From assembly GCF_900091615.1 (NCBI RefSeq), contig NZ_FMIA01000002.1, forward strand, positions 2,480,001 to 2,544,000: 64,000 nucleotides of DNA. Direction: 5' to 3'. Position 1 is the stretch's first letter; every line of letters starts with the position of its first letter. The stretch is from Micromonospora yangpuensis (GTDB taxonomy: Bacteria > Actinomycetota > Actinomycetes > Mycobacteriales > Micromonosporaceae). Both the position numbers and the translations under genes were made by a program. The notes below the pieces were generated by a model. The model was not told the DNA's origin and did no database searches. It saw only the letters and a program-made list of their open reading frames with translations. Positions 1 through 39,849 of this stretch are shown piece after piece.

Positions 1-2
1 AC

Positions 3-977
3 CGGGTGCTGCACCTGGCCGGGGTCAACCGGGGGAACCCGGTGGACGTCGCCGCCGGCAACGTCGAGCTGGCCGCCGCGCTGGTCCGGGGCCTGCGCCG
101 GTGCGCCACCGCACCCGCCACCGTGGTCTTCGCCAACTCGGTGCAGGCCGGCAACGGCACGCCCTACGGCGACTCGAAGGCCGTCGCGGCGGCGACCCTG
201 ATGGCGGCCCGGCCGGACCTGGTCGACCTGCGACTGCCCAACCTGTACGGCGAACACGGCCGCGCCTACCACAACTCCGTCGTGGCCACCTTCTGCCGGC
301 TGCTCGCCGAGGGACACGTACCCGAGGTGCAGGAGGACCGCGCGATGGCACTGGCCCACGTCACCGACGCCGCCGCCCTGCTGCTCGGGGTCCCGGCCGG
401 CGGCTCGTGGGACCCGGAGCTGCCGATGCTGCACCTCGGGGTCGCCGACCTGGCCGAGCGGTTGACCGGCTGGGCCGACACCTACCGCACCGGCGAGATC
501 CCGCCGCTGGCCGACCGGCACGACATGCGGCTGTTCAACACCTACCGCTCGCACTGCTTCCCGGCGCACTACCCGATCCCGCTGGCCCGCCGCGCCGACG
601 AACGCGGCGAACTGGTCGAGACGGTCCGGATGCACGGCGGCACCGGCCAGACCTTCTGCTCCACCACCCGCCCCGGCGCCACCCGCGGCGAACACTTCCA
701 CCTGGTCAAGATGGAACGGTTCGTGGTGCTGCGCGGCACCGCCGAGATCAGCCTGCGGCGCGTCGGCGACGACCGGGTGCTGCGCTTCGCGGTCAGCGGC
801 CGGGAACCGGTGATCGTCGACATGCCGACCATGTGGGCGCACAAGCTGGTGAACACCGGCACCGAGGACCTGGTCACCCTCTTCTGGACCAACGAACTGT
901 TCGACCCGGCCCGCCCGGACACCTACCGTGAGCCGGTCGAGGCCGACCGGGCCGCCCCGGTGGCGGTTCCCGCGTGA
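3..977 (+). CDS. CapF-like bifunctional UDP-sugar reductase/cupin (5' truncated by window)
   Basis: The first bases are already inside the gene: the reading frame opens with VLHLAGVNR, which in CapF/WbjC proteins lies about 60 residues after the start, so the Rossmann NAD(P)-binding segment is outside the window. What remains of the SDR domain has the YxxxK catalytic pair (YGDSK). The C-terminal third is a cupin with an HFH metal-ligand segment and ends FDPARPDTYREPV, as in CapF. The family acts on UDP-4-keto-6-deoxy sugars on the way to UDP-L-FucNAc. The next gene, an FnlC/CapG-type epimerase 52 bp downstream, is its usual pathway partner. The 4,6-dehydratase partner would be expected upstream and is not visible. 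Family assignment is firm; the exact sugar is inferred. Confidence 0.88.
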   Translation, partial: RVLHLAGVNRGNPVDVAAGNVELAAALVRGLRRCATAPATVVFANSVQAGNGTPYGDSKAVAAATLMAARPDLVDLRLPNLYGEHGRAYHNSVVATFCRLLAEGHVPEVQEDRAMALAHVTDAAALLLGVPAGGSWDPELPMLHLGVADLAERLTGWADTYRTGEIPPLADRHDMRLFNTYRSHCFPAHYPIPLARRADERGELVETVRMHGGTGQTFCSTTRPGATRGEHFHLVKMERFVVLRGTAEISLRRVGDDRVLRFAVSGREPVIVDMPTMWAHKLVNTGTEDLVTLFWTNELFDPARPDTYREPVEADRAAPVAVPA

Positions 978-1029
978 ACGTGCGGATCTCCGCAGCCGTC
1001 CCGGTCGCCCCGACCCGAGGAGGAACGAC

Positions 1030-2154
1030 ATGACCCGGGTGATGACCGTGGTCGGTACCCGACCCGAGATCATTCGACTGTCCCGGGTGATCGCCCGGCT
1101 CGACGAGACCGTCGACCACCTGCTCGTGCACACCGGGCAGAACTGGGACAGCACCCTGTCCGAGATCTTCTTCACCGAGCTGCGGGTCCGCCGCCCGGAC
1201 CGGTTCCTGCGGGTCGACACCTCCTCGCTGGGCCGGGTGCTCGGCGGCGTGCTGGTCGGCATGGAGGAGGCGCTCACCGAGCTGCGCCCCGACGCGCTGC
1301 TGGTGCTCGGCGACACCAACAGCTGCATCGCCGCACTGATGGCCCGCCGGATGCGGATACCCGTGTACCACATGGAGGCCGGCAACCGGTGCTTCGACCT
1401 GAACGTGCCGGAGGAGACCAACCGGCGGCTGGTCGACCACATCGCCGACTTCAACCTGGTCTACACCGAACACGCCCGCCGCAACCTGCTCGCCGAGGGC
1501 CTGCACCCGCGCCGCATCCTGCACACCGGCTCACCGATGCGCGAGGTCCTGGCCCACCACGCCGGCGAGATCGCCGCCTCCCGGGTGCTCGACCGACTCG
1601 ACCTCACCCCCGGCCGGTACGTCGTGGTCAGCGCGCACCGGGAGGAGAACGTCGACCACCCCGACCGGCTGCGTCGACTGCTCGACTGCCTCGGCGCGGT
1701 CCGCGACCGGTGGGGGCTCCCGGTGCTGGTCTCCACCCACCCGCGCACCCGCAAGCGGCTGGAGTCGCTCGCACCGGACGCGTCCACCCTGGACGGCATC
1801 GCCTTCCACGAGCCGTTCGGGCTGCTCGACTACGTCCACCTGCAGACCCGGGCCTACTGCACCCTCTCCGACAGCGGCACGATCAGCGAGGAGTCGGCCA
1901 TCCTCGGCTTCCCCGCGGTGACCCTGCGGGAGTCCATCGAACGCCCGGAGGCGCTGGACGCCGGCGGCATCATCATGACCGGCCTCGACCCGGCCGGCGT
2001 GGTCGAGGCGATCGAGGTCACCGTCGCCCAGGTCACCGCCGACGGGGTGCCCTGCCCGGCCGACTACCAGGTGACCGACACCTCCCGCCGGGTGGTCGAC
2101 TTCATCCTCTCCACCGTCCGCCGCCACCACGCCTGGGCCGGCATCCGCACCTGA
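1030..2154 (+). CDS. UDP-N-acetylglucosamine 2-epimerase family (FnlC/CapG type)
   Basis: A 374-residue non-hydrolysing UDP-GlcNAc 2-epimerase fold protein. Visible signatures are GTRPEIIR (9-16), GDTNS (94-98), HMEAGNR (114-120), AHREEN (202-207) and SDSGTISEES (280-289), all standard for WecB/FnlC. The ATG at 1030 was chosen because GAGGAGGAA sits just upstream; the longer frame starting at 928 overlaps the previous gene and lacks a comparable site. In FucNAc pathways this enzyme inverts C2 of the CapF product to yield UDP-L-FucNAc. Plain WecB (UDP-ManNAc synthesis) is the alternative, but the CapF neighbour favours the FnlC/CapG role. Confidence 0.9.
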   Translation: MTRVMTVVGTRPEIIRLSRVIARLDETVDHLLVHTGQNWDSTLSEIFFTELRVRRPDRFLRVDTSSLGRVLGGVLVGMEEALTELRPDALLVLGDTNSCIAALMARRMRIPVYHMEAGNRCFDLNVPEETNRRLVDHIADFNLVYTEHARRNLLAEGLHPRRILHTGSPMREVLAHHAGEIAASRVLDRLDLTPGRYVVVSAHREENVDHPDRLRRLLDCLGAVRDRWGLPVLVSTHPRTRKRLESLAPDASTLDGIAFHEPFGLLDYVHLQTRAYCTLSDSGTISEESAILGFPAVTLRESIERPEALDAGGIIMTGLDPAGVVEAIEVTVAQVTADGVPCPADYQVTDTSRRVVDFILSTVRRHHAWAGIRT

Positions 2155-2517
2155 GACGCGGCCTAGCGTTTCCCCCGGCCCGGTACACCCGAGCGCCCGA
2201 CCGGCCGGCGACAGTTTCCTTGTTCTGGTGGTCTGGCAGGCGTGGAAGGTTCGCCCAGCTCGCCAACCCGGTCGCCACCACCAGTGGTTCCGCATTGTCT
2301 GGACGCGTCCAGCGCTGATGCTGATCGCCTCCCCTGGTGGCTTCGAGGGCGGGAACGACTCCGCACGGGCCCGGCTGGATGTTGATCGACTCGGTTGGGC
2401 CGATATGGCGGTATCAAACCGCCTCGGACCCAGCCGTATCAGCTCAACCGAGTCGATCAACACCCAGTCCTGGGACGCCTCGGCTGGCGGGTCATCCTTT
2501 GCAGCGGAATTGTCCGG
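2155..2517. other. Gene-poor gap in polysaccharide locus
   Basis: No convincing coding region is seen here on either strand. Apart from the long inverted repeat at 2380-2462, which is listed separately, the stretch has no recognisable feature. Its base composition is less GC-extreme than the flanking genes. Confidence 0.5.
2380..2462. repeat. Long interrupted inverted repeat / stem-loop
   Basis: The 18-bp arms TGTTGATCGACTCGGTTG (2380-2397) and its exact complement (2445-2462) flank a 47-nt interior. The similarity continues imperfectly inward and outward (GGCTGGA outside; GATATGGC against GCCGTATC inside). A second small hairpin lies at the centre: GGCGGT and ACCGCC around ATCAA, 2407-2423. 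The structure could be a terminator for the epimerase gene or a copy of a dispersed MITE/REP-like element. No transposase is nearby. Confidence 0.8.
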
Positions 2518-2691
2518 TCAGATGTCCGAGAGCCCTGCTGCTTCCTCGGGCGCTTGCGGTATGTCGTAATCATCGATGATCTCGATCCGGTCCGCCGGCC
2601 AGACGGACTCCGATACTTCCAGGAGGGTGTCGTCCTCTGCTCGGGCGACGTGGATCAGGTGGACGACGCCCGTGGCCGAGGACCGTCGCTC
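2518..2691 (-). pseudogene. Eroded coding fragment, start lost
   Basis: On the minus strand an open frame between stops reads GVVHLIHVARAEDDTLLEV and, a little further on, RIEIIDDYDIPQAPEEA, then stops at 2518. It looks protein-like (balanced composition, acidic C-terminus) but has no ATG, GTG or usable start. It is opposed by another fragment immediately upstream. I do not recognise the family. It is best read as the 3' remnant of a deleted gene; a chance open frame cannot be excluded. Confidence 0.35.
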
Positions 2692-2702
2692 TCAGCTGCG
2701 GT

Positions 2703-2927
2703 GGGGGCACGCCACTGGCCCACCTGGTCGACGTGGCCCGCGCCTGCGTGCGGCGCAACGACCTGCCGGCGGCCGCCGACGCGTTGCTGCTCGCCGACCG
2801 GACCGCACCGACCGAGGTACGGCACCGACCCGTGGCCCGCCACACCCTGCGTACCGTCGTGGGTCGGATGTCGCGGGCCGACGCGGCGCTGGTCCGCCTC
2901 GCCGAGAGCCTGCGCCTGCTCGGCTGA
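2703..2927 (+). pseudogene. C-terminal remnant of an XRE-type regulator
   Basis: The frame gives GGTPLAHLVDVARACVRRND, then AAADALLLADRTAPTEVRHR, ending in LAESLRLLG and a stop. This matches the C-terminal tail common in actinobacterial XRE regulators, where a helical repeat region ends APxEVRxRPxVR. The helix-turn-helix and everything upstream are missing, and only non-coding-looking sequence precedes it. It is therefore probably the stump of a decayed regulator gene. Expression from an internal GTG (2733) as a short peptide is possible but unsupported. Confidence 0.5.
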
Positions 2928-2945
2928 CCGGCGGGGCAGGCCCGG

Positions 2946-3638
2946 TCAGGCGTCGCTGTGGGCGCGTACCCCGATCCGGTCGAAACCGTCGGGTACGGCG
3001 GCCGGCAACCCGGTCGGCCGGGTCGGGGCCTGCCGGGGCACGGGGACGCCGGCGGGGAAGAGCACCGCCCGGACGGTGGCCAGCAGGATGCGCAGGTCGC
3101 CGAGGATGGTGCGGGTCTCCACGTACCGCAGGTACATCTCCACTTTCTGCGGCAGCAGCACCGAGAGGTAGTGCTCCTCCGGGTTCACCTGGTCGGCCAG
3201 GTGTGCCGACTCGTTGCGGAAGGCGACGGCGGCCGGGTCGGTGATGCCGGGGCGGATGGACAGGATGCGCCACCGGGCCACCGACGGCCAGCAGTGGACG
3301 TAGCGGGGCACCTCCGGCCGGGGGCCGACCAGGCTCATCCGCCCGATCAGTACGTCGTAGAGCTGCGGCAACTCGTCCAGCTTGGTGGCGCGCAGGATCC
3401 GCCCGAGGCGGGTGATCCGGTCGTCGCTGTCCGAGGTGACCAGCACCCCGGGGCCGGCGCGCATGGTGCGGAACTTGTGGATCAGGAACAGTTTGCCGCG
3501 CAGGCCCACCCGTTCCTGCCGGAAGAACACCGGTCCACCGTCGTCGCAGCGGACCGCCACGGCGATCAGGAGCAGCAGCGGGGAGGCGAGCAGCAGCGCC
3601 AGCGCGGCGACGACGATGTCGAAGAGTCGTTTGCTCAC
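2946..3638 (-). CDS. Undecaprenyl-phosphate sugar phosphotransferase (PglC/WcaJ-type PGT)
   Basis: This 230-residue monotopic phosphoglycosyl transferase moves a phospho-sugar from UDP-sugar to undecaprenyl phosphate and so starts glycan assembly at the inner membrane. It has an N-terminal hydrophobic re-entrant helix (about 9-29), FRQERVG (39-45), KFRTM (55-59), the catalytic DE pair in DELPQL (88-93) and SLVGPRPEV (102-110), all Bac_transf signatures. Its length matches the short PglC-like form rather than long WbaP/WcaJ proteins with extra helices. The start overlaps the stop of the upstream aminotransferase (4 nt), showing translational coupling. PglC with a PglE-type aminotransferase suggests a 4-amino sugar as first residue; that is inference. 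Confidence 0.92.
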   Translation of the reverse strand: MSKRLFDIVVAALALLLASPLLLLIAVAVRCDDGGPVFFRQERVGLRGKLFLIHKFRTMRAGPGVLVTSDSDDRITRLGRILRATKLDELPQLYDVLIGRMSLVGPRPEVPRYVHCWPSVARWRILSIRPGITDPAAVAFRNESAHLADQVNPEEHYLSVLLPQKVEMYLRYVETRTILGDLRILLATVRAVLFPAGVPVPRQAPTRPTGLPAAVPDGFDRIGVRAHSDA

Positions 3639-4789
3639 TGGAGCACCTTGCTGACGGTCCGGATGACCAGCTCCACCTGGGCGTCGTCCATCGCCGAGAA
3701 GATCGGCAGGCTGACCACCCGGGGGAACTCCGCGCTGGCGACCGGGAACATCTCGTCGGTCAGGGCGTACCGCTGCTGCCAGTAGGTGTGCCGGTGCAGC
3801 GGGATGAAGTGGACGCCGCAGCCGACGCCGAGCCGGGCCAGCTCCGCGATGAAGCCGTCCCGCCCGACGGGGGCCTCGGGGCGCAGCCGCACCACGAACA
3901 GGTGCCAGGAGTGCAGGTCGGTCTCCGGGGCCGGTTGGGGCAGGTCGATCGGCAGGCCGGTGAACGCCTGCCGGTAGCGGGCGGCGATCTCGGCCCGGCG
4001 CAGGCGCATCGCCTCGGCGCGGTCCAGCTGCACCAGCCCCATCGCGGCGGCGGGATCGGTCAGGTTGTACTTGAACCCGGCCTCCACCACGTTGTACTGC
4101 CAGGCGGGCAGCGTGCTGCGGTACCTGTCGAAGCCGTCCCGGTCGAAACCGTGCAGCCGCATGGTGCGTACCCGCTGGGCCAGGGCCGGGTCGCGGGTGA
4201 CCAGCATGCCGCCCTCGCCGGTGGTGATGGTCTTGGTCGCGTAAAAGCTGAACACGGTGGCCGCCGAGTCACCGCCGCCGACCGGCACCCCCGCGCTGGC
4301 CGCCGGGAAGGCGTGCGCGGCGTCCTCGACCACGGCCAGCCCGTGGTCGCGGGCGAAGGTCCGCAGCGCCTCGGCGGCTACCGGCTGGCCGGCGAAGTGC
4401 ACGGGCATCACCGCGGCGGTGCGGGCGGTGACCTTCCGGGTAACGTCGGCCAGGTCGATGTTCAGGGTCACCGGGTCCACGTCGACAAACACCGGGATCG
4501 CACCCACGTGCACCACGACCTCGGCGGTGGCGGTGAAGGTCCAGGTCGGCACCAGCACCTCCGCGCCCCGGGGCAGGCTGAGCGCCTCCAGCGCCAGGTG
4601 CAGGCCGGCGGTCGCCGAGTTCAGCGCGACGGCTGTCACCCCGGGGCCGCAGCGTTCGGCGAACCGCTGCTCGAACTCGCGTACCAGGGGACCGGAGGAG
4701 ACCCAGCCGGAGCGGATGGCCTCGTTGACCGCCCTGATCTCGGCCTCACCGAGATCGGGAAGCGCGAACGGAAGAGTGCGGTCGCCCAT
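3635..4789 (-). CDS. DegT/DnrJ/EryC1 sugar aminotransferase
   Basis: A 384-residue PLP-dependent nucleotide-sugar aminotransferase. The PLP lysine is K186 in SFYATKTITTGEGG; VEDAAHAF (154-161) supplies the cofactor-contact Asp. The ATG at 4789 is taken because AGGAGG stands seven bases upstream; a start 24 bases earlier has no such site. The family converts a 4-keto (or 3-keto) UDP/dTDP sugar to an amino sugar. It forms an operon with the phosphoglycosyl transferase and lies divergent from the glycosyltransferase/acetyltransferase pair. The acetyltransferase at 6147 would be a logical next enzyme. Confidence 0.92.
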   Translation of the reverse strand: MGDRTLPFALPDLGEAEIRAVNEAIRSGWVSSGPLVREFEQRFAERCGPGVTAVALNSATAGLHLALEALSLPRGAEVLVPTWTFTATAEVVVHVGAIPVFVDVDPVTLNIDLADVTRKVTARTAAVMPVHFAGQPVAAEALRTFARDHGLAVVEDAAHAFPAASAGVPVGGGDSAATVFSFYATKTITTGEGGMLVTRDPALAQRVRTMRLHGFDRDGFDRYRSTLPAWQYNVVEAGFKYNLTDPAAAMGLVQLDRAEAMRLRRAEIAARYRQAFTGLPIDLPQPAPETDLHSWHLFVVRLRPEAPVGRDGFIAELARLGVGCGVHFIPLHRHTYWQQRYALTDEMFPVASAEFPRVVSLPIFSAMDDAQVELVIRTVSKVLQ

Positions 4790-4908
4790 GCCTGATCCTC
4801 CTGGTTGCCCCATTTGAGTCCGGTTTGTTGCGCATGAGGATAGGCTCCAATGGCGTAATCAGGGGCGATATTCACGAAAACCAGGCAGAGATCCGAGAGG
4901 TGAGTTAA
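4790..4908. promoter_or_regulatory. Divergent promoter region of polysaccharide genes
   Basis: This 119-bp spacer separates the aminotransferase operon (leftward) from the glycosyltransferase operon (rightward). It is clearly more AT-rich than the genes. A TAGGCT -10-like hexamer (about 4852-4857, plus strand) precedes the rightward gene. No operator was identified. Confidence 0.45.
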
Positions 4909-6150
4909 ATGCGGATTGGTCTGCTCAGTCAGTGGTTCGACCCGGAGCCGGGTCCGGCCGCGTTACCCGGCGTCCTGGCCCGGGGGCTGGCCGGTCGCGG
5001 ACACCAGGTACGGGTGCTGACCGGCTTCCCGAACTACCCCACCGGGCGGCTCGCACCCGGCTACCGGATGTCCCGGCGGGCCGACGAGACCCGCGACGGG
5101 GTGGCCGTCCGCCGGGTCGCCCTCTACCCGAGCCACGACAATTCGCCGGTACGCCGACTGGCGTCCTACACCTCGTTCGCCGCCTCCGCCCTCGCCTCCG
5201 GCACCGGTACGCTGCGCGGACTCGACGCGCTCTGGGTGAGCAACTCGCCCATCACCGTCTCGCTGCCGATGTGGTTCGTCCGCTACGCCCACCGGGTGCC
5301 GGTGCTGCTGCACGTGCTGGACCTCTGGCCGGACAGCGTCGCGGCCAGCGGATTCCTCGGCGACGGGCGCGGCCGGGCGGCGGCCGAGAAGTGCATGACC
5401 GGCTGGTGCGCGGCGATGTACCGCAGCGCGGCCCGGATCGGCTACATCTCCCCGGGCGTGGGTGAGCTGCTGGCCCGCCGGGGCGTACCCGAGGAGAAGT
5501 TGGTCTACCTGCCCCTGTGGGCGCCGGAGGAGACACCCGCGCCGCCGCACACCGACCTGCGCGCCGAACTCGGCATCGGACCCGACCGGATCGTGCTCGT
5601 CTACGCCGGGACCATCGGCGAGGCGCAGGGGCTGGACGCCCTCGTCGACGCCTGCGCGCTGGTCGATGATCCCCGGCTGGTCTGCCTGGTCGCCGGCTCC
5701 GGCCTGGCCGAGCAACGCCTGCGGGAACGGGCGGCGGCCAGCTCCCGTGACATCCGGTTCCTCGGCCGCCTGCCCCGGGACCGGATGCCGGCGCTGATGG
5801 CCGCCGGTGACGTGCACTACGTGAGCCTGCGGCCCAGCGGCATGGGGGCGTACACCATGCCGAGCAAGGTGCAGGCGACCCTGGCCGCCGGTCGGGCCGT
5901 GCTGGCCGCGGCCGAGGGCGACGTCGCCACGGTGGCCCGCGACAGCGGCGCCGGGATCGTCGCCCGCCCCGGCGACCCCGACTCGATCGCCGACGGCCTC
6001 CGGGAGATCTGCCAACTGGGGCGGGAGAAGCTCGACCTGCTCGGGCTGGCCGGTCGGGAGTACTACCGGCGCACCTTCTCGGTGGCCACCGGCGTTGACC
6101 GGGTGGAGGCCGCGTTGCGGGCGGCCGCGGAGACCGGGAGGCGTCGATGA
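4909..6150 (+). CDS. Glycosyltransferase family 4, WbuB-like (putative L-FucNAc transferase)
   Basis: A 413-residue GT-B enzyme opening MRIGLLSQWFDPEPGPAAL, the characteristic start of WbuB-type transferases. It has the donor-site core VYAGTIGEAQGLDALVDA and, near the C-terminus, PSKVQATLAAGRAVLAA. In E. coli O26, WbuB is the FucNAc transferase, which fits the UDP-L-FucNAc genes at the start of the window; the acceptor and linkage cannot be read from sequence. A GAGAGGTGAG ribosome site precedes the ATG. The gene ends in an ATGA overlap with the acetyltransferase gene. Confidence 0.85.
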   Translation: MRIGLLSQWFDPEPGPAALPGVLARGLAGRGHQVRVLTGFPNYPTGRLAPGYRMSRRADETRDGVAVRRVALYPSHDNSPVRRLASYTSFAASALASGTGTLRGLDALWVSNSPITVSLPMWFVRYAHRVPVLLHVLDLWPDSVAASGFLGDGRGRAAAEKCMTGWCAAMYRSAARIGYISPGVGELLARRGVPEEKLVYLPLWAPEETPAPPHTDLRAELGIGPDRIVLVYAGTIGEAQGLDALVDACALVDDPRLVCLVAGSGLAEQRLRERAAASSRDIRFLGRLPRDRMPALMAAGDVHYVSLRPSGMGAYTMPSKVQATLAAGRAVLAAAEGDVATVARDSGAGIVARPGDPDSIADGLREICQLGREKLDLLGLAGREYYRRTFSVATGVDRVEAALRAAAETGRRR

Positions 6151-6776
6151 CCGAGACCGGAGTGGTCGACACCGAGGAACTGACCGGGGCCGACATCCAC
6201 GCCGCGGCGGCCCTGCACGTCCGGGCCTTCCCCCGCTTCTTCCTGTCCAGCCTGGGGGAGCGGTTCCTGCGGGAGTACTACCACGGGTTCCTGCTGGACC
6301 CCGACGCCGTGACGGTGGTGGCCCGGACCGCCGACGGCGCGCTGGCCGGCATCGTCGTCGGCTCGGTACGCCCGGAGGCGTTCTACCGTCGGTTGCTGCG
6401 CCGACGGGGCCTGCGGATGGCCGTGGCCGCCGCGTGGCCGGCGCTGCGCAGCCCCCGGACCGCGCTGCGCCTGCTGCGCGGGATCGCCTACCGCGGGGAC
6501 GTGCCGGTGGCGGCCCACGGCGCGCTGCTCAGCTCCATCTGCGTGGACCCGGCGGTCGAGAACACCGGCCGGGGCCGCGCCCTGATCGACAGGTGGTGGC
6601 TCCGCGCCCGACAGCAGGGCGCCACCAGCGCCTATCTCGTCACCGACGCCGACGACAACGACCGGGTGAACGCCTTCTACCAGCGCTGCGGCTGGACGCC
6701 GGTGGGCAGCTACCTCACCCGGGAACAGCGGCGGATGAACTGCTACAGCATCACCGCACCGGCCGACGGGAGCTGA
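6147..6776 (+). CDS. GNAT family N-acetyltransferase
   Basis: A 209-residue GNAT protein translationally coupled to the glycosyltransferase (ATGA overlap, 6147-6150). The acetyl-CoA loop is visible as SICVDPAVENTGRGRALIDR (about 130-149), followed by the beta-5 segment ATSAYLVTDADDNDRVNAFY and a C-terminal RCGW. The coupling and the nearby amino-sugar genes suggest it acylates an amino sugar of the polysaccharide. It is a GNAT rather than the hexapeptide-repeat acetyltransferase (PglD type) more usual for this step, so the substrate is inference. Confidence 0.8.
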   Translation: MTETGVVDTEELTGADIHAAAALHVRAFPRFFLSSLGERFLREYYHGFLLDPDAVTVVARTADGALAGIVVGSVRPEAFYRRLLRRRGLRMAVAAAWPALRSPRTALRLLRGIAYRGDVPVAAHGALLSSICVDPAVENTGRGRALIDRWWLRARQQGATSAYLVTDADDNDRVNAFYQRCGWTPVGSYLTREQRRMNCYSITAPADGS

Positions 6777-6802
6777 GCCCGGCCCGGGGCGGCGGTCGCC
6801 GG

Positions 6803-7240
6803 TCAGGTCGGTTCGTCGCCGGCCGCGAGCCGCCGCTGCAACGCCACCCGCAGCTCGATCGACTCGCCGTCGCGCCCGCCCCGGCCGATGACCAGCGGTG
6901 CCGGGTCCGGCTGCGGATCCGCGCCGAACAACCGGGCCCGCAGCCCACCGGGGACCATCAGCAGGTGGAACCGCCCGTCGGTGTCGACCGCCCGGGTGCG
7001 GGCCTGGTCGACGTACCAGCCGGTGAGGCGGGTCCGGTACCGGGCCCGCCCGTCGTAGGAGCGGGCGGTCAGCCGGGTGGGCCGCAGCCCACGGCGTACC
7101 GCCTCGGCGGCGAAGTCGGCCACCAGCCGCGCCGCCTGCGCCTGCTCCACCGCCCGCCGGGCCTCGTCCGCCTCGGCGTGCGCCCGCACCGCATGCCGTT
7201 GCTGCTCCCGCCACCGCGAGTCGTCGTCGGTCACCGCCAC
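6803..7240 (-). CDS. Conserved hypothetical protein
   Basis: This 145-residue protein has no domain I recognise. The N-terminal 50 residues are helical and rich in Ala, Arg, Glu and Gln, and may form a coiled coil. The C-terminal part looks like a mixed fold with TRLTGWYVDQARTRAVDTDG and PLVIGRGGRDGESIELR. It has no signal peptide or membrane segment. The GTG start at 7240 (a second GTG lies at 7234) follows a run of G rather than a clean ribosome site. Coding character is supported by amino-acid balance and by fitting exactly between two other genes. Confidence 0.65.
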   Translation of the reverse strand: MAVTDDDSRWREQQRHAVRAHAEADEARRAVEQAQAARLVADFAAEAVRRGLRPTRLTARSYDGRARYRTRLTGWYVDQARTRAVDTDGRFHLLMVPGGLRARLFGADPQPDPAPLVIGRGGRDGESIELRVALQRRLAAGDEPT

Positions 7241-7311
7241 CCCCCCGACGGTACGCCGCCACCCCGGCCCGCCCGCGCGGACCGGGACGGCGGCGTGTGC
7301 CGGGAGTTGCC

Positions 7312-9804
<2,493 letters not shown>

Positions 9805-34637: not shown

Positions 34638-35315
34638 ATGGGGGCAGGTAGGCGCCTCGGCGCAGCGCTGGCGATCACACTCGCCACCTTCACCGTTTCG
34701 CTGGCCGGTGGCGCGCCGGCCCTGGCCGGTGCCCGTCCGCTGGCCCAGCCGGCCGATCCGCTGCCCGGTGACCCGCTGCCCGTCGACCCGCAGCCGGGCG
34801 ATCCGCAGCCCGGTGGCCCGCCGCAGCCGGCACCACCCGCCCCGCCCCACCCGGACAACATCTTCGTCCAGGTCAGTCCGGCCGTGGTGCAGCCCGGTTA
34901 CCTGGTCGGGATCAGGGCCAGCTGTCGGGACAACTCGGTCCCGGCGACCGTCTGGTCGGACGCCTTCGGCAAGGTCACCGTCCATCCCCAGTACGGCTAC
35001 CTGACCGCCTCCCCGATGGTGGCCACGCGTACCCGGCCGGGCAACTACCGGGTGAAGCTGGAATGCCGTTCGGGGGCGACCGCCACCACGACCCTCCAGG
35101 TCACCAAGCACTACCCGCCGACCTATCCGCCGACTCGTCCGCCGACCCACCGACCCAGCCACGGCCCGGCCACCGGTTTCGGCGGCGCGGCCGGCGGCGG
35201 ACCCGGTGACCTGCTGGTCCCGGGCGGGCTGGCGTTGACGCTGGCGGGTGCGGTGGCCGGTGTCCTGGCGGCCCGCCGACCGCGTGACGGCCACGGTGGT
35301 GGGGGCCCGTCGTGA
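34638..35315 (+). CDS. Secreted, Pro-rich protein with C-terminal membrane anchor
   Basis: This 225-residue protein has a signal peptide (RRLGAALAITLATFTVSLAG, cleavage near ALAGA) and a repetitive Pro/Asp/Gly segment with PGDPLPVDPQPGDPQPG. A globular domain of about 80 residues follows, with two cysteines (RASCRDN, LECRSG) likely in a disulfide. A second Pro/Thr linker leads to the C-terminal helix GGLALTLAGAVAGVLAARRP. No LPxTG-like motif is present before the helix. GGGAGGGGA precedes ATG 34638. Its stop overlaps the GTG start of the sortase gene (GTGA), so the two are made together and the product is a candidate partner or substrate. Confidence 0.8.
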   Translation: MGAGRRLGAALAITLATFTVSLAGGAPALAGARPLAQPADPLPGDPLPVDPQPGDPQPGGPPQPAPPAPPHPDNIFVQVSPAVVQPGYLVGIRASCRDNSVPATVWSDAFGKVTVHPQYGYLTASPMVATRTRPGNYRVKLECRSGATATTTLQVTKHYPPTYPPTRPPTHRPSHGPATGFGGAAGGGPGDLLVPGGLALTLAGAVAGVLAARRPRDGHGGGGPS

Positions 35316-36463
35316 CCGTCGACCGCCGCGACGCGCCACCGGACCGCCTGCTCGGACCGGACCGCCGCGACGCGCCACCGGACCGCCTGCTCGGACCGGA
35401 CCACCTTCCCGGGCCGGGCCGGTTCGCCGCCGCCACCTATCTGGCGTCCCGCCCGGTGGTGGGCAGGTTCGGTCGCCCCCGCCGACTCGTCGATCCACCC
35501 GACTTCGCCCGGCCCGATCCGTCGGGAGCGGAACCGGCCCGGCAGTCCCGGCCCTGGTCGGACCTGGCCCGGCAGGCCCTTTCGGGGAGTGTCGCTTCCC
35601 GCCCTGGCCAGGCCGGCGGGGACACGACCCGTCCCGGTCGGCCGGGCACCGGTGCCGGCGGGGGTGCGGCCGGTGCCGGCTGGGCCGGCTGGAGCGTGGC
35701 CGCTGCCGGTTGGACTGGCGGGAGTGGGGCCGGAGGTGGCCCGGCCGGCGGGGGTGCGGCCGGAGGTGGCCGGGCTGGCGGGGGTGCGGCCGGTGCCGGC
35801 CGGGCGGCAGGCGAGGCCGCCGGAGCGGGCCGGCCGGACGGGCGGCGCCCCTGGTCGGTGCCGTTGGCGGTGGTGCTGGTGCTGGTCGGGATCTTCGCCA
35901 CCGGCGCGGGCCTCGGCCGTACCGTCGGGCCGTTCGACTGGGTGGCCGCGACGCCGGAGGCCGAACCGGCAGCGGGTGAGTCGGTGGCCGGCGGGTTGTC
36001 CGCCAGCCGGCCGGTGGGTCTGGCGGTGCCCACGATCAAGGTCAACGCGCCGGTACGGCCGGTCGGGCAGGCCCCCGACGGCACGATCGCCGTGCCGCCG
36101 CTGGAGCGGCACAACGAGACCGGTTGGTACGACCGCGCACCGACCCCGGGCGAGGCCGGTCGGGCGATCATCGTCGGGCACGTGGACAGCAAGGACGGCC
36201 CGTCGGTCTTCTACGAGCTGGCCCGGCTCACCCCCGGTGACCGGATCGAGGTGACCCGGGCCGACGGGTCGGTGGCCGTCTTCGCGGTCGACTCGGTGGA
36301 GCACTTCGCCAAGGACAACCTGCCTGCCGACCGGGTCTACGGCGACTCCGGCCCGCCCGAACTGCGGTTGATCACCTGCGGCGGGCAGTGGCTCGGCGGA
36401 CGGACCGGGTACCAGGACAACGTGATCGCCTTCGCCTCGCTTGTCGACTCCCGCAGCCGGTGA
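35312..36463 (+). CDS. Class F sortase with long low-complexity N-terminal region
   Basis: A 383-residue transpeptidase-family protein. The catalytic His is in IIVGHVDSKDGPSVFYELAR and the Cys in LRLITCGG, with the Arg-region GGRTGYQDNVIAFA, as in class F sortases. A single membrane helix (VPLAVVLVLVGIFATGAGLG) precedes it, so the catalytic domain is outside. The cytoplasmic N-terminal about 185 residues are unusual: a 13-residue segment (DRRDAPPDRLLGP) occurs twice in tandem and is followed by a Gly/Ala/Pro-rich stretch. It is coupled to the secreted protein gene. The last codons and stop lie in a 26-bp sequence that recurs 2.16 kb downstream. Confidence 0.88.
   Translation: MTVDRRDAPPDRLLGPDRRDAPPDRLLGPDHLPGPGRFAAATYLASRPVVGRFGRPRRLVDPPDFARPDPSGAEPARQSRPWSDLARQALSGSVASRPGQAGGDTTRPGRPGTGAGGGAAGAGWAGWSVAAAGWTGGSGAGGGPAGGGAAGGGRAGGGAAGAGRAAGEAAGAGRPDGRRPWSVPLAVVLVLVGIFATGAGLGRTVGPFDWVAATPEAEPAAGESVAGGLSASRPVGLAVPTIKVNAPVRPVGQAPDGTIAVPPLERHNETGWYDRAPTPGEAGRAIIVGHVDSKDGPSVFYELARLTPGDRIEVTRADGSVAVFAVDSVEHFAKDNLPADRVYGDSGPPELRLITCGGQWLGGRTGYQDNVIAFASLVDSRSR
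35321..35398. repeat. Exact 39-bp tandem duplication inside the sortase gene
   Basis: Bases 35321-35359 are repeated without change at 35360-35398, in frame, giving two copies of DRRDAPPDRLLGP. The identity points to a recent duplication. Confidence 0.9.
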
Positions 36464-36471
36464 CCCGGCTG
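36446..36471. repeat. Left copy of a 26-bp direct repeat
   Basis: This 26-bp sequence (GACTCCCGCAGCC then GGTGACCCGGCTG) includes the last codons and TGA of the sortase gene. It is identical to 38602-38627, and with one mismatch the match continues three or four bases further. It contains an internal hairpin, CAGCCGG and CCGGCTG around TGA(C). It may be an attachment/duplication border or a repeated terminator. Confidence 0.85.
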
Positions 36472-36497
36472 CTGCACTCGCGGTGCCCGGTAGAAAG

Positions 36498-36555
36498 CCC
36501 GCCCCGGGGGCGTCGCGGCGGCGGGGGACCGAAAGCGACGCCGCACCGGGGCGGG
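36498..36555. terminator. GC hairpin between sortase and the leftward hypothetical gene
   Basis: CCCGCCCCG and CGGGGCGGG plus inner GGCGTCG/CGACGCC form a long imperfect stem with a 20-nt loop. It separates the converging sortase and Cys/Trp-motif genes and probably terminates both. Confidence 0.7.
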
Positions 36556-36569
36556 CGGTCCGGGGGAGG

Positions 36570-37121
36570 TCAGGTCACCGCGGGTCGGATGGCGTCCCGC
36601 GCCCAGGCGAGAAACCGTTGGTCGAGCGTCGCCGGGTGGGGGCGTTGGCCGAGTTGGTGAAGCTGGTCGCCCGCGTGGGCCAGCATCGCGCCGAGATACA
36701 TCACCAGGGCGTCCGGCTCACCCTCGTAGACGCGTAGTAGCGCCGCCTGGGCGGGCCCGCACGGCCAGTCCTTCCGGCACGCCGAGCAGCCCCAGAGTGG
36801 GCGCATCGGAGTGTGTCGGGTGCGGGTGATGTCGGGCAACGGCTGCCGTGAGCGCATCAGGTCGAGCGCCACCGCCCGCGCGTCGGCGTCGCTCAAGGGC
36901 GTGCAGAACACGAACCGTCGGACGACCTCGGGCGCGGGCAGGTAGCGCATGTCCCGGATAGCCAGCTGGGTCAGGTAGATCAGCGCGCCGACGATCTGCA
37001 TCGACGCGTCGCCGGACCGGTACTCCGTGCACGGCCACGGCTCCGCGCACGCCGTGCAGTCCCACGTCGGTCGGGTCGGCACGTGTGAGGCGTCCGCGCC
37101 GTAAGTGATCGGGATCATCAT
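36570..37121 (-). CDS. Small protein with duplicated WxCxxCxxxWPC motif
   Basis: A 183-residue protein of unknown function. It contains two copies of a cysteine/tryptophan motif: TRPTWDCTACAEPWPC (about 16-31) and MRPLWGCSACRKDWPC (about 102-117), each followed by a helical stretch. Single-copy relatives of this motif are familiar from small actinobacterial genes near XRE/DUF397 pairs; the three cysteines could bind zinc. Here the module seems duplicated within one chain. ATG 37121 overlaps the stop of the small upstream gene (ATGA), and the longer frame would run through that gene. It is divergent from the XRE-DUF397 operon. Confidence 0.72.
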   Translation of the reverse strand: MMIPITYGADASHVPTRPTWDCTACAEPWPCTEYRSGDASMQIVGALIYLTQLAIRDMRYLPAPEVVRRFVFCTPLSDADARAVALDLMRSRQPLPDITRTRHTPMRPLWGCSACRKDWPCGPAQAALLRVYEGEPDALVMYLGAMLAHAGDQLHQLGQRPHPATLDQRFLAWARDAIRPAVT

Positions 37122-37327
37122 CGCCAGCGCCCCCGGTTCGCCCGCCATGCCTGAGCCGGGGTCAGGTTCCCGGCGCTGCCCGGCCGCACGACCGGGTACA
37201 CGGCGGTGCGCGTGTTCGCCCAGTCCGGGTGCGGGGTCGTGCGGTCGGTCGCCGGCTGGCGGGATCCTGCGGCGTGGCGCGGCCCGGGTCGCTGCCCGCG
37301 GTTCGTGCGCCGTCTGCGGAAAAGCAT
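37118..37327 (-). CDS. 69-residue basic protein coupled to the WPC-motif gene
   Basis: This short ORF starts at ATG 37327 with AGAGGGG six bases upstream, and its TGA overlaps the next start codon (ATGA). Both points argue strongly that it is translated. The product is very basic (MLFRRRRTNRGQRPGPRHAA) and ends NLTPAQAWRANRGRWR. No known domain is recognised. It may bind nucleic acid or the WPC-motif protein. Confidence 0.62.
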   Translation of the reverse strand: MLFRRRRTNRGQRPGPRHAAGSRQPATDRTTPHPDWANTRTAVYPVVRPGSAGNLTPAQAWRANRGRWR

Positions 37328-37567
37328 CGGGTACCCCTCTGTGTGGTCGCTTGTGGTCTGTGAGGGGGCCGCCTTCGAGCAAGGTGGGTGAACCGCGAGG
37401 CGGCCCCCGGGACGGCGCGGCCTGCCGGTCCCGACGGGCCGGGTCGGGATTCACCTTCCCGCCGGGAAGCTGCGCCGTCCTGTGACCACTATGGCTATCG
37501 GAGGGTAGGCGGCCACACCACGTTAGGTAAGATAGACAGACGTCGCAAACGTCGGGGAGGGTGCTTC
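37328..37567. promoter_or_regulatory. Divergent control region of the XRE-DUF397 island
   Basis: This 240-bp spacer lies between the leftward WPC operon and the rightward XRE gene. A TAAGAT -10-like box (37528-37533) stands upstream of the XRE gene. GACGT and ACGTC around CGCAA (37539-37553) form a small perfect inverted repeat next to the XRE ribosome site, a candidate autoregulatory operator. Confidence 0.5.
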
Positions 37568-38335
37568 GTGAACCACGTTCTGATTGAAGCCATGACGCAG
37601 TGCGGGGAGACCGCCGACAGCCTTGCGGCCCAGGTGGGGGTAGACCCGAAGTCTGTCCAGCGGTGGGTCAACCCTGGTGCCGTGCCGCATCCTCGGCACC
37701 GGTCGACCGCCGCGCGGGTGCTGGGCCGCGACGTTGGCGACCTTTGGCCGAGCACGGTGCGCCGCCGTGAGCCGGCATGGTTCCGGCGGTGGGCCGACAT
37801 CGAACGCGCGGCGGTGTCCCTGCGGACATTCCAACTCGCCTGGGTGCCCGGCCTGTTGCAGACCGAGGCGTACGCGCGGGCGACCCTCGCCGGCGAGGCG
37901 CTGAGCGTCGCCGAGGTAGATGGCCTGGTCGAGGGTCGGACAGCGCGGCAATCGATCCTGCGCCGGGACCGGCCGCCGTTGCTGGTCGCGGTTATCGACG
38001 AGACTGTACTGCGGCGGACGCTCGGCGGTGACCGGGCGATGATGCGCGAGCAGTGCGCCTATCTGCTCGCCTGCGCCGAGCTGCCGTCGGTGCGCGTGCA
38101 CGTCGTACCGAGCACCGTCGGCATCTATTCGGGGCACGGTGGGCCGATCACGCTCGCTGAATTGGGCGACGGGTCGGCCTGGGCGCACGTGGACAGTCAG
38201 GGGCGCGGCGAGATCGTCGACAGCGCGACGGACCTTGCTACGCTGAGTCGCAGATGGGAACTCATCCGGGGCGTGGCGATGTCCGTCGACCAGTCCCGTG
38301 ACCTGCTCGAAGAGGTGGCAGCATCATGGACCTGA
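37568..38335 (+). CDS. XRE-type regulator with DUF5753 domain (WhiJ-like)
   Basis: A 255-residue protein with an N-terminal helix-turn-helix (ETADSLAAQVGVDPKSVQRW, about 13-32) and the typical PHPRHRSTAARVLG recognition region. From about residue 75 a DUF5753 domain follows (FQLAWVPGLLQTEAYARATL, then RQSILRRDRPPLLVAVIDE). GTG 37568 follows GGGGAGGG and is the likely start, because the 60 preceding residues of the long frame look non-coding. Its 3' end overlaps the DUF397 gene by 10 bp. In Streptomyces such XRE/DUF397 pairs influence development and antibiotic production and have been proposed to behave like toxin-antitoxin pairs. Confidence 0.9.
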   Translation: MNHVLIEAMTQCGETADSLAAQVGVDPKSVQRWVNPGAVPHPRHRSTAARVLGRDVGDLWPSTVRRREPAWFRRWADIERAAVSLRTFQLAWVPGLLQTEAYARATLAGEALSVAEVDGLVEGRTARQSILRRDRPPLLVAVIDETVLRRTLGGDRAMMREQCAYLLACAELPSVRVHVVPSTVGIYSGHGGPITLAELGDGSAWAHVDSQGRGEIVDSATDLATLSRRWELIRGVAMSVDQSRDLLEEVAASWT

Positions 38336-38517
38336 CCCGCGCGCGGTGGCGCAAGAGCACGTACAGCGGCAACAACGGCGGCGACTGTGTCGAGGTCGCC
38401 GACAATGTGCCCGGCGTCGTCGGTGTTCGGGACTCGAAGGACCCGGCCGGCCCGGCGCTGACCTTCGGTCCGGCCGCGTGGCGGGCGTTCGTCGGCATGG
38501 CGGCGGCGCAGCGCTGA
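38326..38517 (+). CDS. DUF397 small protein
   Basis: A 63-residue protein with the full DUF397 pattern: ARWRKSTYSGNNGGDCVEVA at the front, then VGVRDSKDP and FGPAAWRAFV. It overlaps the XRE gene and is the expected partner. Its biochemical role is not settled; related proteins in Streptomyces coelicolor are encoded next to WhiJ-like regulators and modulate them. Confidence 0.93.
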   Translation: MDLTRARWRKSTYSGNNGGDCVEVADNVPGVVGVRDSKDPAGPALTFGPAAWRAFVGMAAAQR

Positions 38518-38550
38518 GCGGAAGGGCCCTTCACGCCTCGCGGATTCTGG

Positions 38551-38591
38551 CGATCCCCGCAACACCCTGAATCAGGGAGTTGCGGGGATCG
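38551..38591 (+). terminator. Strong hairpin after the DUF397 gene
   Basis: CGATCCCCGCAAC and GTTGCGGGGATCG form a perfect 13-bp outer stem. An inner CCCT/AGGG stem continues after one A-A mismatch. TGGTTTT follows on the plus strand, so it resembles an intrinsic terminator for the XRE-DUF397 operon. Confidence 0.85.
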
Positions 38592-38601
38592 TGGTTTTGC
38601 G

Positions 38602-38627
38602 GACTCCCGCAGCCGGTGACCCGGCTG
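38602..38627. repeat. Right copy of the 26-bp direct repeat
   Basis: It is identical to 36446-36471, the 3' end of the sortase gene, and in the same orientation. In this position it encodes nothing and stands immediately after the DUF397 terminator. Confidence 0.85.
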
Positions 38628-38674
38628 TTGCCCACTGTCGGTGGTCTGCCCGCCGGGCCGCCACCAGACTGTGG

Positions 38675-38995
38675 TCAGCGGGGGCCGGGGACCTGCTGGA
38701 CCACCTCGAACTCCAGCAGGTTCGCGCCGGTGGCGACCGGCCGGCGGGGCGGCTCACCCTCCCCGGCGCCGTGTGCGGCGCGGGACGGCCCGGCGGCCCA
38801 GTTCTGGTACGCCTCCTCGCTCTCCCACCTGGTGTAGACGAAGTAGCGGCTCTCGCCGCCGACCGGACGCAGCAACTCGAACCCGAGGAAACCGGGGGAG
38901 TTCTCCACCGCGGCGGCCCGGGCGGCGAAGCGCCGTTCCAGTTCCTCGCCGCCGCCGGGCGGTACGTCGAGCGCGTTGATCTTCACGATGGCCAT
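38675..38995 (-). CDS. Antibiotic biosynthesis monooxygenase (ABM) domain protein
   Basis: A 106-residue single ABM-domain protein of the dimeric ferredoxin-like fold. It starts MAIVKINALDVPPGGGEELE and has the conserved NSPGFLGFELLRP and YFVYTRWESEEAYQNW. These features are shared with IsdG/MhuD-like haem-degrading monooxygenases and with quinol monooxygenases. The N/W pattern (N and W at the expected positions) favours the haem-degrading subgroup, but this cannot be settled from sequence alone. It lies next to xthA, in the same direction. Confidence 0.85.
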   Translation of the reverse strand: MAIVKINALDVPPGGGEELERRFAARAAAVENSPGFLGFELLRPVGGESRYFVYTRWESEEAYQNWAAGPSRAAHGAGEGEPPRRPVATGANLLEFEVVQQVPGPR

Positions 38996-39013: not shown

Positions 39014-39811
39014 TCACAACGACTCCACGGCGGGCACCAGGTCAGCGTCGACCACCACCGGGGCGTGGTCGGAGGGGCCCTTGCCCTTGCGTGCCTCCCG
39101 GTCGACGTACGCCGAACGCACCGCGTGGGCGAGCGGCGCGGAGGCGTACACCAGGTCGATCCGCATGCCCTTGTTCTGGTGGAACATCCCGGCCCGGTAG
39201 TCCCAGTAGGTGTACGGGTGCGGCCCCTTCATTGCCGTCGGCACCACGTCCCGCAGCCCCAGGTCCCGCAGGGCGGCCAGGGCGGCGCGTTCGGCCGGGG
39301 TGACGTGGGTGGAGGTGACGAAGAGCGCCGGATCCCAGACGTCGGCGTCGGTGGGGGCGACGTTGAAGTCGCCGCAGACGGCCAGCGTGGGCGCCCCGGT
39401 CAGCTCCTGCTCCAAGGCGTCGCGCAGGGCGGCGAACCAGGCCAGCTTGTACGCGTAGTGCGGGTCCTCGGGCGTCCGCCCGTTCGGCACGTACACCGAC
39501 CAGACCCGCAACCCGGCGCAGGTGGCCGAGATGGCGCGGGCCTCGGGGGCGGGGAAGCCCGGCTCACCGGGGAACCCGACGGTCACGTCGCCCAACCCCA
39601 CCCGGGACAGGATGGCCACGCCGTTCCACCGGCCGTCGCTGTGACTGGCCACCGTGTAGCCCAGCTCGCCCACCTCGGCGACCGGGAAGGCCCCGTCGGG
39701 GCACTTGGTCTCCTGCAGGCACACGACGTCGGGGCCGGTGGTGGCCAGCCAGTCGAGCAGCCGGGGCAGGCGGGCCTTCACGGAGTTCACGTTCCAGGTC
39801 GCCAGGCGCAT
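39014..39811 (-). CDS. xthA: Exodeoxyribonuclease III
   Basis: A 265-residue ExoIII-family AP endonuclease of the exonuclease-endonuclease-phosphatase fold. Conserved motifs are ATWNVNSVKAR (N-terminal metal site), CLQETKCPD (Glu), SVYVPNGR, GDFNVAP and the C-terminal SDHAPVV with the catalytic Asp-His. ATG 39811 follows GGAGG. It acts in base-excision repair at abasic sites. Confidence 0.95.
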   Translation of the reverse strand: MRLATWNVNSVKARLPRLLDWLATTGPDVVCLQETKCPDGAFPVAEVGELGYTVASHSDGRWNGVAILSRVGLGDVTVGFPGEPGFPAPEARAISATCAGLRVWSVYVPNGRTPEDPHYAYKLAWFAALRDALEQELTGAPTLAVCGDFNVAPTDADVWDPALFVTSTHVTPAERAALAALRDLGLRDVVPTAMKGPHPYTYWDYRAGMFHQNKGMRIDLVYASAPLAHAVRSAYVDREARKGKGPSDHAPVVVDADLVPAVESL

Positions 39812-39849
39812 GCCTCCAGCCTGCCCCATTCTCGGCCCCGGCCGGTGGA

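Follow-up and report, generated by a model that had tools for sequence, protein, structure and literature searches.

The window analysed here is a 64,000-nucleotide stretch of the Micromonospora yangpuensis genome (assembly GCF_900091615.1, contig NZ_FMIA01000002.1, positions 2,480,001 to 2,544,000). In this window, the 3' end of a class F sortase gene is present twice, as a perfect 26-bp direct repeat on both sides of a small regulatory cassette; the second copy faces the convergent partner of the sortase gene, which encodes an antibiotic biosynthesis monooxygenase (ABM) domain. Comparison with other genomes of the genus supports the view that a cassette of approximately 2.1 kb entered behind the sortase gene and that the 3' end of this gene was duplicated. 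The scar is real and well preserved, and it marks a junction at which DNA has landed repeatedly. The right boundary of the insert is a break inside an insertion sequence (IS) of the IS30 type, which is joined to the sortase tail with an overlap of 4 nt (GACT). The insertion has the look of a rough join, not of a dedicated mobile element at work. We favour, with fair but not high confidence, an illegitimate and perhaps one-sidedly homologous acquisition of the cassette at a permissive convergent junction, with the copied gene end left behind as a scar. The junction comprises the following features:

35312..36463, + strand: class F sortase gene, its final 18 nt within the left repeat (Pfam PF04203, E 9e-23; NCBIfam NF033748, 204 bits, cutoff 166)
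36446..36471, + strand: left copy of the 26-bp repeat, the sortase 3' end (sequence comparison, genome-wide count and shuffles)
38540..38605, + strand: truncated left end of an IS30-type insertion sequence, aligning to positions 2-70 of a 1472-bp IS in genome G136
38602..38627, + strand: right copy of the 26-bp repeat, running on into the native ABM side (sequence comparison, genome-wide count and shuffles)
38675..38995, - strand: ABM-domain gene, the convergent partner of the sortase gene in the empty site (PF03992, E 2e-19; synteny)
39014..39829, - strand: putative exonuclease III-like gene serving as syntenic anchor (synteny)

A preliminary description of this DNA, made from the sequence alone, had reported identical 26-mers in the same orientation, the left one at the sortase 3' end. 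Direct comparison confirmed both points: the 26-mers at 36446-36471 and 38602-38627 are 100% identical and directly oriented, and the left one comprises the final 18 nt of the sortase gene, including the stop codon, plus 8 nt. The right copy ends 47 nt from the ABM gene. When extended, the repeat covers 35 nt at 91% identity (36441-36475 versus 38597-38631); its gapped alignment scores 31, versus a maximum of 20 in 500 shuffles, and 100 shuffles of the window put the chance expectation of such a repeat at 0.00. The genome search that the preliminary description had proposed, with up to 3 mismatches allowed, detected only these two copies in the 6.52-Mb genome, and hence none at unrelated gene ends. 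The exact 26-mer was also absent from the viral and GTDB genome collections, from which the genome's own record is possibly excluded. A similar stretch in G157 (L199) was rejected as lying within an unrelated coding frame. Among the sortase tails of 146 relatives, the best agrees with the 26-mer at 20 of 26 positions (median 14). Since the 26-mer is specific to one genome at this level of comparison, both copies probably represent alleles from a single species, which would make the event recent on that scale. A foreign origin of the left sortase end was considered and rejected, because identity to the nearest relative keeps its level close to the insert.

Evidence for the insertion itself comes from empty sites in relatives. 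Of 159 other genomes in the genus that were searched, 146 were examined (G006, G022 and G083 are among the 13 left out), and the counts over relatives omit L011, which is the window itself, as well as L019, L031 and L032, which are short duplicates of L041-L043. The sortase stop was placed in all 146 genomes, after which the ABM and exonuclease genes were sought, and the ABM gene was located in 135. In these 135 relatives the sortase-ABM gap is at most 50 nt in 21, at most 300 nt in 70 and above 400 nt in 64, the largest being 7.2 kb. Relatives in which the sortase stop is followed almost directly by the ABM gene, which the preliminary description had suggested looking for, do exist: L014, L015 and L020 have a gap of 16 nt. 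In a tree of the sortase end and the exonuclease (132 tips; L013, L024 and L176, with the exonuclease missing or cut off, are not included), the nearest relative is L012 (support 0.995), whose gap of 131 nt is free of the cassette. Because the nearest relative is empty and 70 of the 135 gaps are no longer than 300 nt, an insertion is supported. The empty site in L012 and the duplicated 3' end thereby bear out the earlier proposal of a cassette of about 2.16 kb inserted at the sortase gene.

The right edge of the cassette is defined by the IS remnant, and the larger hairpin at 38551-38591, just inside the right repeat copy and overlooked in the preliminary description, is an IS30-type end. The remnant consists of the 62 nt preceding the right copy together with the first 4 nt of that copy (66 nt), and it matches the G136 IS at 91% over 57 nt (E 3e-13) or, in another search, at 90% over 69 nt (E 3e-18). 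This 1472-bp IS occurs in two identical copies in G136 and contains a 460-aa open reading frame (ORF) with HTH_38 and rve domains; in a Gordonia and a Rhodococcus plasmid, the sequence of the remnant directly precedes annotated IS30 transposases. The match ends at ...GGACT, and the right 26-mer begins with the GACT of this stretch. The window gave no match to the rest of the IS, be it transposase or second end, and the left end was not found elsewhere in the genome among the five best candidates scored. As the IS end has no other copy in this genome, the remnant probably came in with the cassette. One of the complete G136 copies, in L196 (the other is in L200), sits in the middle of a terminator-like palindrome, and the remnant in the window likewise follows a gene end, that of the DUF397 gene.

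The same sortase gene end has been copied in other lineages. A downstream copy (-40 to +10, score of at least 17) is present in 4 of 140 relatives, namely L041, L013, L049 and L024; the remaining six of the 146, with a downstream stretch shorter than 300 nt, were omitted. Among 700 control pieces from elsewhere in the same sortase genes none reached 17 (best 16), and in gapped alignment the window and each of the four relatives beat all 500 shuffles. L055, which adjoins L049 in the tree, also beats its shuffles, mostly by means of a dispersed palindromic repeat, and was excluded from the count. Judging from their similar sortase tails and GntR genes, L024 and L049 may represent one event, which gives about four events in total (L024/L049, L013, L041 and the window). 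The duplicated stretch varies among them, from -18 to +8 in the window, -38 to +3 in L041, -19 to +14 in L013 and about -51 to +14 in L049, and the inner flanking sequences differ as well. A gene-end copy accompanies merely 4 of 23 regulator-bearing gaps (19 with GntR and 4 with XRE genes), so the duplication is no constant companion of such cassettes.

The sortase-ABM junction is a hot spot, a landing place used repeatedly in many species. XRE-DUF397 pairs lie in it in L041, L064, L151 and L176, and a GntR cassette, consisting of a 74-aa GntR protein and/or a small partner, in 19 gaps. An alpha/beta hydrolase gene forms the largest cluster of gap ORFs (17 ORFs), and other gaps hold an IS30-type ORF (L043) or further metabolic and regulatory genes. 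At 29 sortase loci of comparable length, the gap exceeds 400 nt in 8 of 26 resolved cases, and longer stretches taken for the three unresolved ones gave gaps of 1464, 2450 and 3963 nt. At two control convergent junctions such gaps were found in 0 of 7 and 0 of 26 loci (three unresolved in the latter); the control loci were drawn from 61 genomes and the sortase loci from 160, which makes the comparison indicative only.

Several side observations concern the contents of these gaps. The GntR cassette with its divergent protein of about 70 aa lies at 603-1400 in L049, is also found in L013, L066, L081, L082, L164 and others, and occurs elsewhere too; its small partner is present in 35 of 101 genomes and matches no Pfam or NCBIfam family. 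XRE genes are located in the next gap, between the ABM and exonuclease genes, in L076, L088, L090, L107, L110, L165 and L182, at least four of them with DUF397. A dispersed palindromic repeat with TTGATCCAC / GTGGATCAA ends is present in the sortase-ABM gaps of 25 of the 146 relatives (e.g. L024, L028, L038 and L039).

We propose the following scenario for the window. A regulatory cassette, composed of a gene for a Cys/Trp-motif protein, a divergent XRE-DUF397 pair and a trailing IS30-type copy, would have been acquired horizontally and inserted at the convergent sortase/ABM junction. On the right side, the incoming DNA, ending within the IS30-type element, would have been fused via GACT to position -18 of the sortase end. 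The fusion can be read directly from the sequence; that it was an illegitimate join is what we infer from it. Hence the final 26 bp of the gene end would stay on the right, whereas the left would keep the complete sortase gene with its 3' end. Two routes probably account for completion of the left side: either homologous pairing with the sortase end of a donor from the same or a very close strain, or a template switch by a polymerase. In homology-facilitated illegitimate recombination, one side can be homologous and the other is joined at a few matching bases, which would duplicate a piece of the target. The scar described here resembles the expected outcome of that process, with a putative homologous side. 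Selection would retain only those insertions that spare both facing genes, and the gene-end copy would then be a survivable scar and not a recognition site. Tight empty junctions combined with selection for whole gene ends can by themselves explain duplications that cover the stop codon.

A number of points weigh against this scenario. The 4-nt overlap could arise by chance, the left junction is devoid of any diagnostic feature, and similarity past the 26-mer is not significant (fraction 0.055). Regulator cassettes are present in 4 of 4 relatives with a gene-end copy, and if the selection argument is set aside, the recurrence of one duplicated gene end in about four lineages shows more regularity than would be expected from random breakage. 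The hot-spot control rests on two usable junctions, since at the third (d) none of the 29 loci yielded the partner gene, and is to be taken as indicative. The same picture would result if an att-flanked element had later lost its right part by deletion from the IS, and a 26-bp direct repeat at a gene 3' end also fits the product of a tyrosine integrase (8-60 bp; PMC5704250).

The latter points lead to an alternative that we consider unlikely but worth keeping in sight, in which the sortase stop region is an attachment site and the cassette is a decayed element, similar to a cis-mobilizable element (CIME), that retains attL and attR, the integrase having acted in trans or having since been lost, and a later IS30 insertion and deletion having trimmed the right end. 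Integrative and mobilizable elements (IMEs) are described as recombining at repeats of 8-60 bp, and CIMEs as decayed elements retaining attL and attR (PMC5704250). Like CIMEs and IMEs at gene 3' ends, the insert is short and has no integrase or transfer genes, and its direct repeats contain the 3' end of the target gene, here together with an inverted repeat. The far-side copies in 4 of 140 relatives, set against none in 700 control pieces, also speak for an attachment site, and so does L013, where the copy takes in the sortase stop together with the spacer and the end of the ABM gene and resembles a clean site duplication, while the nearest sortases (L014 and L015) have an empty site. Unlike those elements, which have a fixed core and defined ends, the duplications here have limits that vary by lineage together with their inner flanks, the right end in the window lies inside a broken IS, a related integrase-bearing element was not found at the site in the relatives' gaps scanned, and the target is poorly conserved between species.

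The search for a recombinase or a donor likewise argues against an integrase. In line with the preliminary description, which had seen no integrase, the four ORFs of the insert contain no recombinase or transfer gene by Pfam and NCBIfam. The gaps of relatives yielded 77 ORFs of at least 140 aa (ABM and XRE excluded), grouped in 41 clusters, and a Pfam scan of 39 cluster representatives (all but L078 and a 154-aa ORF of L151) detected no tyrosine or serine recombinase; the sole integrase-core match was the rve (DDE) domain of the IS30-type ORF in L043. No close relative of the sortase end or of the ABM gene was found in viral contigs. A phage or plasmid origin was rejected, the matches being partial and limited to DUF397, XRE or the IS end; in bases 1-8650 of the Micromonospora plasmid H2, one DUF397 gene is the only annotated gene of the cassette kind. 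The IS junction and the variable limits thus weaken the integrase reading, as does the lack of recombinases among the ORFs scanned.

A broader form of the same idea, which we regard as doubtful, holds that a recombinase supplied in trans has used the sortase stop/ABM junction repeatedly in the genus as an attachment site, placing there regulator cassettes of two unrelated kinds that lack an integrase (XRE-DUF397 and GntR with its partner) and regenerating the sortase 3' end each time. Repeats were also sought around such cassettes in general. The XRE-DUF397 pairs comprised 30 loci (L122-L150 and L004); three of these, L139, L140 and L142, are near the sortase and 27 lie elsewhere. None of the 30 showed repeats above the control; the best score was 15, versus a control maximum of 16 (93 pairs) and 27 for the window. 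For 27 GntR units tested within 600 nt, the 21 located elsewhere score at most 12, none exceeding the control maximum of 16 (189). Of the six units at the sortase site, L207 (the unit of L049) exceeds 16, L227 ties with it, and the other four score 12-13. No conserved cassette ends among the GntR units were obvious by eye. The suggestion in the preliminary description that an integrating element had been moved in trans finds no support, given that pairs elsewhere show no repeat above control, that the IS edge is broken, that the limits vary and that no site-specific recombinase was found among the 39 gap-ORF representatives scanned.

Ancient vertical inheritance, with the cassette at the junction in the ancestor of the genus and lost many times since, appears improbable. 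In the XRE tree (built without L076, L090 and L107, which gave short matches), XREs at or beside the junction in other species fall in one part, together with L131 from elsewhere (node support 0.74), and the wider pattern may be partly old. The window XRE lies outside the group of XREs from the same gap in relatives (deep support is weak), the site is empty in the nearest relative, and the repeat copies have kept full identity to each other though the tails of relatives differ from the 26-mer at 6 or more of 26 positions. Because the window XRE does not group with the junction XREs of other species, the window cassette probably arrived separately, as far as the tree can tell.

There is very little to recommend an IS30-like transposition in which the repeat is a target-site duplication. 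The right edge does contain an IS30-type end, whose 66 nt match the left terminus of a complete 1472-bp IS of this family. Both complete G136 copies, however, are flanked by 3-nt repeats (TCG and ACC) and not by 26 nt, which led us to reject this origin, and unlike a complete IS the window retains a single terminus, so that the IS would be a passenger and not the agent. A dispersed terminator, the competing view of the preliminary description, or a chance match can be practically dismissed: the small hairpin that had been noted within the repeat is genuine (RNA fold z = -3.7) and stems of at least 6 bp are somewhat commoner at the sortase stop (10 of 146 loci, the window included) than in control pieces of the gene (16 of 735), but mean stem lengths are alike (3.5 versus 3.6), the genome holds just two copies, the left one is sortase coding sequence, and chance is rejected by the window shuffles, the control pieces and the alignment shuffles. 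A scan against Rfam gave zero matches, and a sigma-70 scan found no promoter.

The content of the insert is as the preliminary description had outlined it, a two-gene Cys/Trp unit and a divergent XRE-DUF397 pair, and is confirmed by ORFs and Pfam:

36497..36556 (limits approximate), no strand: strong hairpin at the left inner end of the insert, beside the 3' end of the Cys/Trp gene, a probable terminator (fold -53.7 kcal/mol, z -4.1)
36570..37148, - strand: 192-aa protein with two Cys/Trp motifs, W-x-C-x-x-C-x4-W-P-C (ORF; start codon chosen by hand)
37118..37327, - strand: 69-aa ORF overlapping the 5' end of the Cys/Trp gene (ORF alone; no Pfam or NCBIfam family)
37568..38335, + strand: XRE-type, WhiJ-like regulator with a DUF5753 domain (PF19054, E 3e-50, 170.8 bits; start codon chosen by hand)
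38326..38517, + strand: small DUF397 protein, BldB-like (PF04149, E 3e-25, 88.5 bits, cutoff 24)

The pair thus consists of a DUF397 protein and an upstream XRE-type regulator with a DUF5753 C-terminus, and it is divergent from the reverse-strand Cys/Trp gene and 69-aa ORF. The regulator matches NF058600 partially (111 bits, under the cutoff of 350), and Pfam gave no match for its helix-turn-helix region at E 0.01. The Cys/Trp protein has no Pfam or NCBIfam family, and a search returned one relative (56%) beside its own entry. Partial matches to it adjoin XRE-DUF397 pairs in 22 of 30 other loci, and it is therefore probably a third member of the module in the genus. Two internal repeats were observed in the sortase gene: a perfect 39-bp tandem duplication at 35321-35398 and a 30-bp periodic repeat at 35654-35863, which encodes a Gly/Ala-rich linker.

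In Streptomyces, XRE-DUF397 pairs have been described to regulate development and the production of antibiotics (PMC10364602, PMC6262351, PMC10294661, PMC4255298); such pairs have also been proposed to be toxin-antitoxin modules, also on plasmids (PMC2701414, PMC4239341); XRE/DUF5753-DUF397 pairs are reported on plasmids and in actinomycetes (PMC2701414, PMC4255298). The pair in the window resembles WhiJ/BldB, Scr1/Scr2 and the proposed toxin-antitoxin modules in having a DUF5753 XRE-type regulator followed by an overlapping DUF397 gene. It differs from Streptomyces pairs in its neighbour, which is an AbaA anti-sigma-like protein there (PMC10294661) and the family-less Cys/Trp protein here. 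By analogy with its family, the cassette most likely works as WhiJ/BldB-type pairs are known to do, the small partner modulating a DNA-binding regulator. A literature search combining sortase, integration site and Micromonospora found no paper, and class F sortase did not occur as a term in the first six matches listed by another search.

The locus cautions against taking a perfect direct repeat at the 3' end of a gene, on its own, as evidence for an integrase. The locus shows that small regulator cassettes of the WhiJ/BldB type can enter between tightly facing genes while harming neither, with a copied gene end as the price. Since the landing spot has been used repeatedly, the mechanism, att-like or illegitimate, is open to testing by comparison of strains.

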